From assembly GCF_001592045.1 (NCBI RefSeq), contig NZ_BCWB01000042.1, forward strand, positions 1-64,000: a stretch of DNA of 64,000 nucleotides. The letters run 5' to 3'. Shown here piece by piece: positions 58,773-64,000 of this stretch (the stretch's first letter is position 1; every line of letters begins with the position of its first letter). The stretch comes from Thermobifida fusca NBRC 14071 = JCM 3263 (GTDB lineage: Bacteria; Actinomycetota; Actinomycetes; Streptosporangiales; Streptosporangiaceae). The notes under the pieces were generated by a model, which made no database searches, was not told the DNA's origin, and was given only the letters and a program-made list of their open reading frames with translations. Made by a program: the position numbers and the translations under genes.

Positions 58773-60404
<1,632 letters not shown>

Positions 60405-60523: not shown

Positions 60524-60550
60524 TTAGCACTCGACTGCGGAGAGTGCTAA
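60524..60550. promoter_or_regulatory. CIRCE box 1 (HrcA operator) upstream of groEL
   Basis: TTAGCACTC-N9-GAGTGCTAA is a perfect match to the CIRCE consensus, 126 bases before the groEL start and just downstream of the predicted -10. Confidence 0.95.
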
Positions 60551-60557
60551 CGGTTAC

Positions 60558-60586
60558 TTTTTAGCACTCCCCTGGGGGGAGTGCAA
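60558..60586 (-). promoter_or_regulatory. Promoter of groEL with second CIRCE box
   Basis: On the minus strand, -35 TTGCAC (60586-60581) and -10 TAAAAA (60563-60558) are 17 bases apart. The spacer is filled by a second CIRCE, TTAGCACTC-N9-GAGTGCAAA at 60561-60587 (one mismatch in the second arm). HrcA bound here would block RNA polymerase directly, and at box 1 it would block the start of transcription. Confidence 0.8.
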
Positions 60587-60672
60587 ACGTCCGGAGCACC
60601 GCCGCCGCCCTCCCTACCCCCAGCTCAGAGCGGATTAACCACCCCTCAGGGACTTTTCCGCTCCCAGAAAAA

Positions 60673-60711
60673 CAGGTGTGGCCGGGGCGTGTCACACCCC
60701 GACCACACCTG
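60673..60711 (-). terminator. Terminator of the thrC-cysO operon
   Basis: CAGGTGTGG-C-CGGGG / CCCCG-A-CCACACCTG (14 pairs and one mismatch) with a 9-base loop is followed on the minus strand by TGTTTTTCTGG. Confidence 0.85.
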
Positions 60712-60728
60712 CACGACACGGGTCCCGG

Positions 60729-61007
60729 TCAGCAGCCTCCCGCCACCGCCGGGATAATCGACACTTGGACCCCGTCCGGGGTGGGCGTGTCCAGACCGCT
60801 GGCGAACCGGACGTCCTCGTCACCCACGTAGATGTTGACGAAACGGCGGATCGCGCCGTCGTCGCCGAGGATACGGGCCTGGATCCCCGAGTAGTTGGTC
60901 TCCAGGTCAGCCAGCACCTCCTTGAGGGTGGCCCCCTCGGCGGACACCTCGGCCTGCCCCTTGGTGTAGGTGCGCAGAATCGTCGGAATGCGGACGCTGA
61001 CACTCAT
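60729..61007 (-). CDS. CysO-like sulfur carrier protein (MoaD/ThiS family) with C-terminal Gly-Gly-Cys
   Basis: This 92-residue ubiquitin-fold protein begins MSVSVRIPTILRTYTKGQ. It is close to mycobacterial CysO through SGIQARILGDDGAIRRFVNIYVGDEDVRF and ends IIPAVAGGC. CysO ends in Gly-Gly, which is adenylated and thiocarboxylated to feed CysM cysteine synthesis. Here a Cys follows the Gly-Gly and would have to be removed, as Mec-type JAMM proteases do for related carriers (established for QbsE and CysO adducts). The gene follows thrC on the same strand after 69 bases. No mec or cysM gene is in the window. Confidence 0.88.
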   Translation of the reverse strand: MSVSVRIPTILRTYTKGQAEVSAEGATLKEVLADLETNYSGIQARILGDDGAIRRFVNIYVGDEDVRFASGLDTPTPDGVQVSIIPAVAGGC

Positions 61008-61076: not shown

Positions 61077-62345
61077 TCAGAGCAGCCCGGCGTCTTTGAA
61101 CGCGCTCAGCGACGGCTTGATCGTCGCGGTGACACCGGTACCGGACACAGCGTTGAGCGTCTTCAAGCCGTCCCCGGTGTTGAGCACCACGGTCTCGGCC
61201 TCGGGGTCCAGCACTCCCTTGGCCAGCAGTTTGCGCAGCACACCAGTGGTGACCCCGCCCGCAGTCTCGGCGAAGATCCCCTCCGTGCGCGCCAGCAGGC
61301 GGATCGAATCCACGATCTCCTCGTCGCTGACGTGTTCGACCGCGCCTCCCGTGCGGCGGCAGACGTCGAGCACGTACGGGCCGTCCGCCGGGTTGCCGAT
61401 AGCCAGCGACTTAGCGATGGTGTCCGGCTTGACCGGCTGGACCACGGTGTAGCCCTTCTCCCAGGCACGGGCCACGGGCGCGCAGCCGGTCGCCTGCGCC
61501 CCGAAGATCCGGTACGGCTTGTCCTCGACCAGCCCCAGCGCGATCAACTCCTGGAATCCCTTGTCGATCTTGGTGAGTTGGGACCCGGAGGCAATGGGGA
61601 TCACGATCTGGTCGGGGACGCGCCACCCCAACTGCTCGGCGATCTCGTAGGCGAGCGTCTTCGACCCTTCGGCGTAGTAGGGGCGCAGGTTGACGTTGAC
61701 AAAACCCCAGTCCTCCCCCGCCGGGTCGCCGATCAGCTCGGAGCAGAACCGGTTGACGTCGTCATAGGTGCCCTCGATCGCCACAAGCTGGCCACCGTAG
61801 ACCGCGGCCATGACGACCTTGGCTTCCTCCAGCCCTGCCGGGATGAACACGCAGGAGCGGAACCCGGCGCGGGCCGCGGCAGCGCCCACCGCCCCGGCAA
61901 GGTTCCCTGTCGACGAGCAGGACAGGGTGGTGAAACCGAAGACCCGGGCAGCTTCCACTGCCATGGCCACGACCCGGTCCTTGAACGAATGCGTCGGGTT
62001 AGCGGAGTCGTCTTTGACGTACAGGGAGCGCAGCCCCAGTTCAGCGGCGAGCCGGTCGGCCTTGACCAGCGGGGTCAGGCCGGGGTTCATGTTCGGCAGC
62101 TTCTCGACGTCGACGGGAACCGGCAGCAGGGCCTTGTACCGCCAGATGTTCTTCGGCCCCTGCTCGATGGACTCACGGGTAACGGTTCCGAAGTCGTAGG
62201 CGACTTCCAGCGGGCCGAAACACTCGATGCAGGCGAAAATCGGACCGAGATCGTAGCGGGCGCCGCATTCGCGGCACGACAGTGCGGAAGCAGAACCGAA
62301 AGAGCCGGTGGCAGACGTGACTGATTCCGTGGCGGTCAGCGCCAT
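61077..62345 (-). CDS. thrC: Threonine synthase
   Basis: The product is 422 residues from ATG 62345 (GGGGAG 8 bases upstream); a longer frame would include the riboswitch. An N-terminal zinc-ribbon-like CxxC pair is at 24-27 (SCRECG) and 39-42 (CIEC). The fold-type II PLP core has Lys122 (NPTHSFKDR), the phosphate loop SSTGNLAGAVG and NTGDGLKTL. It converts O-phosphohomoserine to threonine. It is the first gene of an operon with the CysO-like gene and is controlled by a SAM-I riboswitch in its leader. A related role, such as use of the sulfur carrier, cannot be excluded. Confidence 0.93.
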   Translation of the reverse strand: MALTATESVTSATGSFGSASALSCRECGARYDLGPIFACIECFGPLEVAYDFGTVTRESIEQGPKNIWRYKALLPVPVDVEKLPNMNPGLTPLVKADRLAAELGLRSLYVKDDSANPTHSFKDRVVAMAVEAARVFGFTTLSCSSTGNLAGAVGAAAARAGFRSCVFIPAGLEEAKVVMAAVYGGQLVAIEGTYDDVNRFCSELIGDPAGEDWGFVNVNLRPYYAEGSKTLAYEIAEQLGWRVPDQIVIPIASGSQLTKIDKGFQELIALGLVEDKPYRIFGAQATGCAPVARAWEKGYTVVQPVKPDTIAKSLAIGNPADGPYVLDVCRRTGGAVEHVSDEEIVDSIRLLARTEGIFAETAGGVTTGVLRKLLAKGVLDPEAETVVLNTGDGLKTLNAVSGTGVTATIKPSLSAFKDAGLL

Positions 62346-62358
62346 GAGGCGTTCTCCC

Positions 62359-62495
62359 CTCATCTTCCCCACTGCCACCTTGACAGTGGGACGGAGTTGG
62401 CACCTGTCCCGGCCGCCTCGCACCTGACGAGCAACGTCCACCGGGATGGTTGCCGGGGCTTCACAGGGCCGTGTCCCTCCACCCCTCTGGATGAG
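62359..62495 (-). ncRNA. SAM-I (S-box) riboswitch in the thrC leader
   Basis: On the minus strand the leader has every conserved S-box block in order: P1 5' strand CTCATC (62495-62490), AGAGGGGTGGAGGGA, GGCCC, TGAAGCCCCGGCAACC, then GGTGCCAACTCC, a P4 hairpin CCCACTG/CAGTGGG, and P1 3' strand GATGAG (62364-62359). The P1 3' strand abuts the thrC ribosome binding site GGGGAG, and the ATG is 14 bases further on. There is no room for a terminator, so control must be translational. Bases ATGAGG (62363-62358) can alternatively pair with CCTCAT (62349-62344), which includes part of the start codon. A -10-like TAGAGT lies at 62546-62541. Confidence 0.93.
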
Positions 62496-62762
62496 CAATC
62501 TCAAGTTTTCCGCTCGGTTGTGTCCCGAGACCTGTCGGTCACTCTAACGGACCGCGTACCAGTTTTCCACGGGGGGCCATGTGCTCCCAGTTCTCCCCCT
62601 CCGTCCATGCTGTGACAGAGCTCTACCCGAAGGGCCGGTTTGCGTGGCAGCGCACCGGGCGAGACTAAACAGAACGCGAGACACGACCCGCCTCCCGTCG
62701 CCCCAAGGGCCATGTAGTCAAATGGGTCATCGGACTCCGACCGCTGAGAGGTGGACCAACAG

Positions 62763-64000
62763 GTGGACAAGGCACAGATCCTCGTCGCTTCCAACAGGGG
62801 ACCCGTGTCCTTCTCAATCGGGGACGACGGCGCCGTGAAATCCCGGCGCGGCGGTGGCGGCCTGGTTTCCGGACTGAGTTCGGTAGCCACCGAGATCGAA
62901 ACCCTGTGGGTGTGCGCCGCGTTGTCCGACGCTGACCGCAAAGCCGCCGCAGCAGCCCCCGAAGGGCGGCTGGACAAGGCCGGATACGACGTGGGCGGGG
63001 CGAGTGTACGCATGCTCAACATTCCCGCCGACGTCTTCAACAATGCCTACAACTCTGTGGCGAACTCCACACTGTGGTTTGTTCACCACATGCTCTACGA
63101 CACCCCCAACAAGCCGTCGTTCGGCTCCCGTTTCCGCGCCGAGTGGGAGGACTACCGGGCCTACAACTCTGCTTTCGCGGAAGCACTGCTGACCGGCGCG
63201 GACGAGGGGGCGAAGGTCGCCGTCCAGGACTACCACCTGGCGCTGGTACCGAAAATGCTCCGGGTACGCCGCCCCGACCTGCGCATCGCCCACTTCTCCC
63301 ACACCCCTTGGGCTCCCCCCGAGTACTTCCGGATGCTTCCCGCGGACATCGGCCGGGAACTCCTCGAAGGCATGCTCGGCGCCGACCACTTGGGCTTCCT
63401 CAGCGTGCGCTGGGCCGACGCGTTCCTGCGGTGCTGCGAAGTGTTCCTGCGCGCCCCGGTGAACTGGGGCACCCGCACGGTCGAGCATGGCGGCCGGGTC
63501 ATCCGTGTCGGAGTCCACGGCCTGGGCGCAGACGCCCAAGGGCTGCGGGAGCGGGCCGCCGCCGAAGATGTGGCGCGCTGGCGGGAACGGCTGCGGGAAC
63601 GGGTCGGCGACCGCAAGCTGATCGTGCGAGTGGACCGCACCGAACTGTCCAAGAACATCGTGCGCGGCCTGGAAGCCTTCGGTGAACTGCTGCGGAAGCG
63701 CCCCGAATGGCGGAACCGGGTCACCCACTTGGCGTTCGCATACCCCAGCCGCAGCGGTGTCGCGGAGTACCGCGCCTACACCGAGTCGGTGCGGGCCACG
63801 GCCGAAGCGATCAACGCCGAGTTCGGCACCGACGACTGGACCCCCGTGGTGCTGGAGGTCAACGACGACTACCCCCGCTCCCTCGCCTCCTACCAGATCG
63901 CTGACGTGCTGCTGGTCAACCCGATCCGCGACGGGATGAACCTGGTCGCAAAGGAAGGGCCGGTGCTGTCGCTCAACGGCGTAGCGCTCGTGCTGTCCAC
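62763..64000 (+). CDS. otsA: Trehalose-6-phosphate synthase, N-terminal part (C-terminus beyond window)
   Basis: About 412 residues are visible before the right edge. The start is GTG 62763 with AGAGGTGG about 9-16 bases upstream. It is a GT20 glycosyltransferase: ILVASNRGPVSFSIGDDG, GGGGLVSGL, VQDYHLALVPKMLR, HFSHTPWAPPEYFRMLP, GFLSVRWADAFLRC, RVDRTELSKNIVRGL and NPIRDGMNLVAKE. It makes trehalose-6-phosphate from UDP- or GDP-glucose and glucose-6-phosphate, for osmotic and heat protection. It is divergent from thrC; no phosphatase gene is visible in the window. Confidence 0.93.
   Translation, partial: MDKAQILVASNRGPVSFSIGDDGAVKSRRGGGGLVSGLSSVATEIETLWVCAALSDADRKAAAAAPEGRLDKAGYDVGGASVRMLNIPADVFNNAYNSVANSTLWFVHHMLYDTPNKPSFGSRFRAEWEDYRAYNSAFAEALLTGADEGAKVAVQDYHLALVPKMLRVRRPDLRIAHFSHTPWAPPEYFRMLPADIGRELLEGMLGADHLGFLSVRWADAFLRCCEVFLRAPVNWGTRTVEHGGRVIRVGVHGLGADAQGLRERAAAEDVARWRERLRERVGDRKLIVRVDRTELSKNIVRGLEAFGELLRKRPEWRNRVTHLAFAYPSRSGVAEYRAYTESVRATAEAINAEFGTDDWTPVVLEVNDDYPRSLASYQIADVLLVNPIRDGMNLVAKEGPVLSLNGVALVLS

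Follow-up and report, generated by a model that had tools for sequence, protein, structure and literature searches.

SAM-I riboswitches usually shut genes off when S-adenosylmethionine (SAM) is plentiful. In Thermobifida fusca NBRC 14071 = JCM 3263, such an element lies directly before a gene annotated as threonine synthase, which raises the question of which product is placed under SAM control, and in which direction. An initial annotation had proposed that SAM turns threonine synthesis on. Here, we report an analysis of the first 64,000 nucleotides of contig NZ_BCWB01000042.1 (the window), compared with orthologous loci from the same class (actinomycetes). We consider it likely that the riboswitch represses translation of a metM-metO unit at high SAM, with MetM making homocysteine, a reading that replaces a puzzling SAM-threonine link with a sensible SAM-homocysteine link.

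Aptamer and ribosome binding site

The covariance model RF00162 gave a full-length match (model positions 1-108; 78.3 bits; E value, 1e-16) on the minus strand at 62357-62497, above the gathering score of 44.4 bits, and so bore out the complete S-box (SAM-I) aptamer of the initial annotation. No other SAM-I was found in the 3.64-Mb T. fusca genome; the second genome-wide match (14.9 bits) was set aside as noise. The P1 helix is the one first described, pairing CUCAUC (62490-62495, minus strand; read as CTCATC at 62495-62490) with GAUGAG (62359-62364, minus strand; GATGAG at 62364-62359), as placed by the sequence and the Rfam structure line. Aptamer loci were collected across the class, 148 of them with a located aptamer, and in all 148 a metM ortholog (60-93% identity) stood directly downstream; relatives thus keep the element in the untranslated region before a gene of methionine/SAM metabolism. 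A start codon was assigned in 147 leaders (25 families, 59 genera), among which the 3' strand of P1 is near-invariant. From family match and conserved position, we take the element to be a genuine SAM-sensing RNA switch, with SAM binding predicted.

The start ATG of the downstream gene lies at 62345-62343 (minus strand), 13 nt past the end of P1, and pattern matching found no terminator between aptamer and gene, so control is most likely translational. The Shine-Dalgarno (SD) core GGAG (62354-62357, minus strand; from the sequence and the 16S duplex) begins one base past P1, and the best 16S duplex, UGAGGGGAGA, extends 4 nt into the 3' strand of P1. These positions agree with the initial description of a P1 strand touching the ribosome binding site, a platform of about 13 bases, and no separate terminator. 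In every one of the 147 leaders whose start codon was assigned, P1 ends 8-22 nt (median, 15) ahead of that codon and therefore lies over or right beside the ribosome binding site.

A P1 placed in this way is the published layout of direct attenuation by SAM-I; the source cautions that calling a mechanism "attenuation" is not enough to imply OFF logic (Barrick and Breaker 2007, PMC2258182). The T. fusca leader shares with that layout (PMC2258182) a ribosome binding site within or next to the 3' strand of P1, the lack of a terminator, and an actinobacterial host; it differs in that the GGAG core lies one base outside P1, so occlusion would be partly steric and not by pairing alone. When the P1 strand is left out of the SD:16S duplex, the loss is small in the window (-8.3 to -6.9 kcal/mol) but amounts to 4-6 kcal/mol in families f17, f20, f24, and f29. 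In these four families the SD is largely the 3' strand of P1 itself, and SAM can therefore only block it there. The 147 leaders form a natural series of spacings between P1 and the ribosome binding site for the study of direct attenuation by SAM-I. By sequence inspection, some leaders of family f14 (L016, L028) pair the P1 strand GAGCC with GGCUU, and L016 has an additional, separate CGAAAG/CUUUCG hairpin over the SD; these platforms look like the classical sequestor/anti-sequestor OFF type.

Downstream gene

The gene at 61077-62345 (minus strand; annotated thrC) encodes a 422-amino-acid fold-type II pyridoxal phosphate (PLP) enzyme that scores above the cut-off of TIGR00260, the NCBIfam model for threonine synthase (278.6 versus 167.1 bits). 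The initial annotation had taken it for the cell's threonine synthase, but three observations show that it does not have that role. A second threonine synthase gene (G000:C70; 35% identical) directly precedes a homoserine-kinase-like gene, recognized as thrB by sequence inspection, and thrC-thrB is the usual gene pairing. In a quick tree, the two proteins fall into separate clades (support, 100) with long branches, and they are told apart by 34 fixed differences, including NPTHSFKD and STGNL in place of NPTGSFKD and STGNT; neither tree nor motif comparison grouped the 422-amino-acid protein with thrB-linked ThrC. Its gene is followed not by thrB but by one for a ThiS/MoaD-like sulfur carrier (60729-61007, minus strand; 92 amino acids; PF02597, 8.7e-15) ending in IPAVAGGC. 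What ThrC and this homologue have in common is the PLP fold type II and the substrate O-phosphohomoserine, the latter taken for MetM from the literature.

All of these features, with the aptamer upstream, match metM and metO of Streptomyces. According to a 2025 paper on Microcystis ThrC (PMC12172450), which cites Hasebe et al. 2024 (AEM 90:e01247-24), MetM was identified by the latter as a Streptomyces homocysteine synthase, and metM of S. albulus has a SAM riboswitch upstream, as found here. The same source reports that Microcystis thrC adjoins a gene with a sulfur-carrier annotation that resembles metO of S. albulus, and that a Microcystis MetM homologue showed threonine synthase activity in vitro (PMC12172450). 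In a reannotation of S. lividans, RF00162 was placed before SLIV_16930-16925 under the label "threonine biosynthesis" (PMC8079986); this type of locus was therefore known already, but mislabelled. Streptomyces genomes sampled by us had one SAM-I each, before the metM ortholog in those examined. The Streptomyces orthologs compared, from species other than S. albulus, are about 73-79% identical to T. fusca MetM, and their loci resemble that of T. fusca in aptamer class, a downstream MetO, and a short translational platform. T. fusca belongs to another family, and in its genus the hairpin competing with P1 reaches into the start codon, whereas in Streptomyces the CCUC is located ahead of that codon. 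Taken with clade, motif, and partner gene, the gene is very probably metM, a predicted O-phosphohomoserine-dependent homocysteine synthase. Its N-terminal four-cysteine motif (C24, C27, C39, C42), invariant in four aligned orthologs, is possibly a zinc ribbon and perhaps docks MetO.

Occurrence across the class was gauged in 45 genomes drawn as a control; ThrC is encoded in every one of them and MetM, in addition, in 34. SAM-I was present in 33 of the 34 MetM-bearing genomes and lay directly upstream of metM, by coordinates or Rfam, in 28 of the 33; adjacency was compared in these 28, and the other five were counted on SAM-I presence in the genome. The 34th metM (G015) was discarded as a case of MetM without SAM-I, since a contig end cuts the gene. 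No SAM-I was found at the other threonine synthase paralogues checked. With a metM ortholog and SAM-I in 33/45 sampled actinomycete genomes, beside a separate ThrC, the "thrC" behind SAM-I is probably a class-wide misannotation, with consequences for automatic annotation and for models of metabolic pathways in Streptomyces, Nocardiopsis, and their relatives.

Direction of control

The proposal of an ON switch had been drawn from a hairpin at 62344-62363 (minus strand), which is present as described: ATGAGG (62363-62358) is complementary to CCTCAT (62349-62344), the 8-nt loop GGAGAACG holds GGAG, and hairpin and P1 are mutually exclusive. In ViennaRNA, when the folded RNA ran from the leader through 40 nt counted from the start codon, the ligand-free hairpin had a pair probability of 0.76-0.89 and P1 one of 0.10; when it ran through 15 nt instead, P1 rose to 0.92 without ligand, so the balance depends on the length of RNA folded. 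In the T. fusca leader, the AUG was unpaired with a probability of 0.05 ligand free and about 0.66 once the P1 strand was removed, and the opening cost was 11.8 versus 7.7 kcal/mol. Across families, folding gave no consistent change in SD and AUG accessibility upon P1 formation. Reading the sign from folding alone was rejected, given that the prediction flips with folded length and that accessibility has no trend at the family level.

Conservation of the start-codon pairing in relatives, a check named in the initial annotation, did not hold. The exact hairpin occurs in 3/147 orthologous leaders (T. fusca, its congener L040, and L052 from another genus of the family) and is confined to the T. 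fusca genus plus one neighbouring genus, whereas the 4-bp core GAGG/CCUC occurs in 74/147 leaders and 14/25 families. Support for the hairpin, whose 5' arm is the near-invariant 3' strand of P1, was assessed by shuffle tests. Family-averaged pairing of the P1 strand did not exceed that of composition-matched spacers shuffled downstream of the SD (25 families; 16/25 negative, P = 0.23; t test, P = 0.19). Pairing in the T. fusca genus was stronger than in shuffles (z = -2.4 for the whole spacer; -1.4 under the stricter null).

Four readings of the locus were weighed on this evidence. That SAM switches metM on in the T. fusca genus, the hairpin hiding the start without SAM and a locked P1 freeing CCUCAUG, draws on a hairpin that is real and excludes P1, on the change in AUG pairing (base pairing alone favours ON) and opening cost, and on the z score of the T. 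fusca leader against whole-spacer shuffles. It would require a genus-level rewiring with inverted logic inside a class-wide OFF family, and it meets the rarity of the hairpin, the lack of any systematic opening of SD or AUG with P1 formed at the family level, and the lineages that form their SD from the 3' strand of P1; the folding model also leaves out steric block by an aptamer folded 13 nt from the AUG, and SAM activating an enzyme that produces homocysteine would be positive feedback. We regard an ON switch of metM, and the rewiring it implies, as improbable. Slightly lower still do we place the reading in which the gene is an additional threonine synthase under OFF control, so that SAM would repress threonine formation and rebalance O-phosphohomoserine flux, with MetO incidental: the annotation, the TIGR00260 score, and the in vitro activity of a Microcystis homologue (PMC12172450) speak for it, but the dedicated thrC-thrB pair, the conserved metO partner, the distinct clade and active-site motif, and the published homocysteine synthase activity of MetM (as cited in PMC12172450) speak against it. 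The original model, SAM turning on a true threonine synthase, has leader geometry and the annotated name in its favour and is the least credible of all, both of its halves being contradicted, one by the thrC-thrB pair and the separate clade, the other by the leader comparison and the shuffles.

The riboswitch is very likely an OFF switch. The sign is read from the geometry of P1 over the ribosome binding site and from a product that is a SAM precursor: a methionine gene downstream predicts OFF, not ON. The initial annotation had allowed for this direction as an alternative, P1 partly hiding the ribosome binding site, and with P1 at that site in 147/147 leaders it now appears the better reading, the sign itself being deduced. 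Repression of metM-metO has points against it as well, namely, a GGAG just outside P1 with little duplex lost, a ligand-free hairpin that pairs the start codon, the passing TIGR00260 score, and the presence of MetX and MetY.

MetO thiocarboxylate is reportedly the sulfur source, and O-phosphohomoserine the substrate, of the Streptomyces enzyme. By analogy, T. fusca MetM would join O-phosphohomoserine with sulfur from MetO thiocarboxylate to give homocysteine. SAM would fold the aptamer and lock P1, which ends 13 nt short of the start codon; its 3' strand, lying over or beside the ribosome binding site, would block 30S loading. Without SAM, P1 would open and ribosomes initiate. Opening in the T. 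fusca genus may be aided by the AUGAGG/CCUCAU hairpin, which as a competitor of P1 would keep it open without SAM and display GGAG in its loop.

Neighbourhood and genome

MetO is encoded downstream of metM in most orthologous loci, with a C terminus of AGG or AGGC. The ending is AVAGGC in T. fusca and many relatives and AVAGG in others; the extra Cys after Gly-Gly means that trimming would be needed. A JAMM (Prok-JAB) protease gene adjoins CysO-like and CysM-like genes elsewhere in the genome (G000:C58), and its product might remove the last residue of MetO, the Cys, and so expose Gly-Gly. A CysO-like protein of the same genome (L161, 1489-1767) ends in AVAGGMR, two residues past Gly-Gly, which implies C-terminal processing. 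Sequence inspection also revealed adjacent metY-like and metX-like genes (L004), without SAM-I; MetM is therefore not the sole predicted route to homocysteine, and two such routes may coexist under different control.

Pattern matching placed an intrinsic terminator (19-bp stem, T tail) after metO at 60672-60712 (minus strand), the probable end of the metM-metO transcript. Two tandem CIRCE operators (60524-60587; one perfect, one with 1 mismatch; 0 expected by chance) follow closely on the metM-metO unit and precede groEL (58773-60398, minus strand), which is probably under HrcA control through them. On the plus strand, the divergent gene at 62751-63998 resembles, by eye from its translation, an OtsA-type trehalose-6-phosphate synthase.
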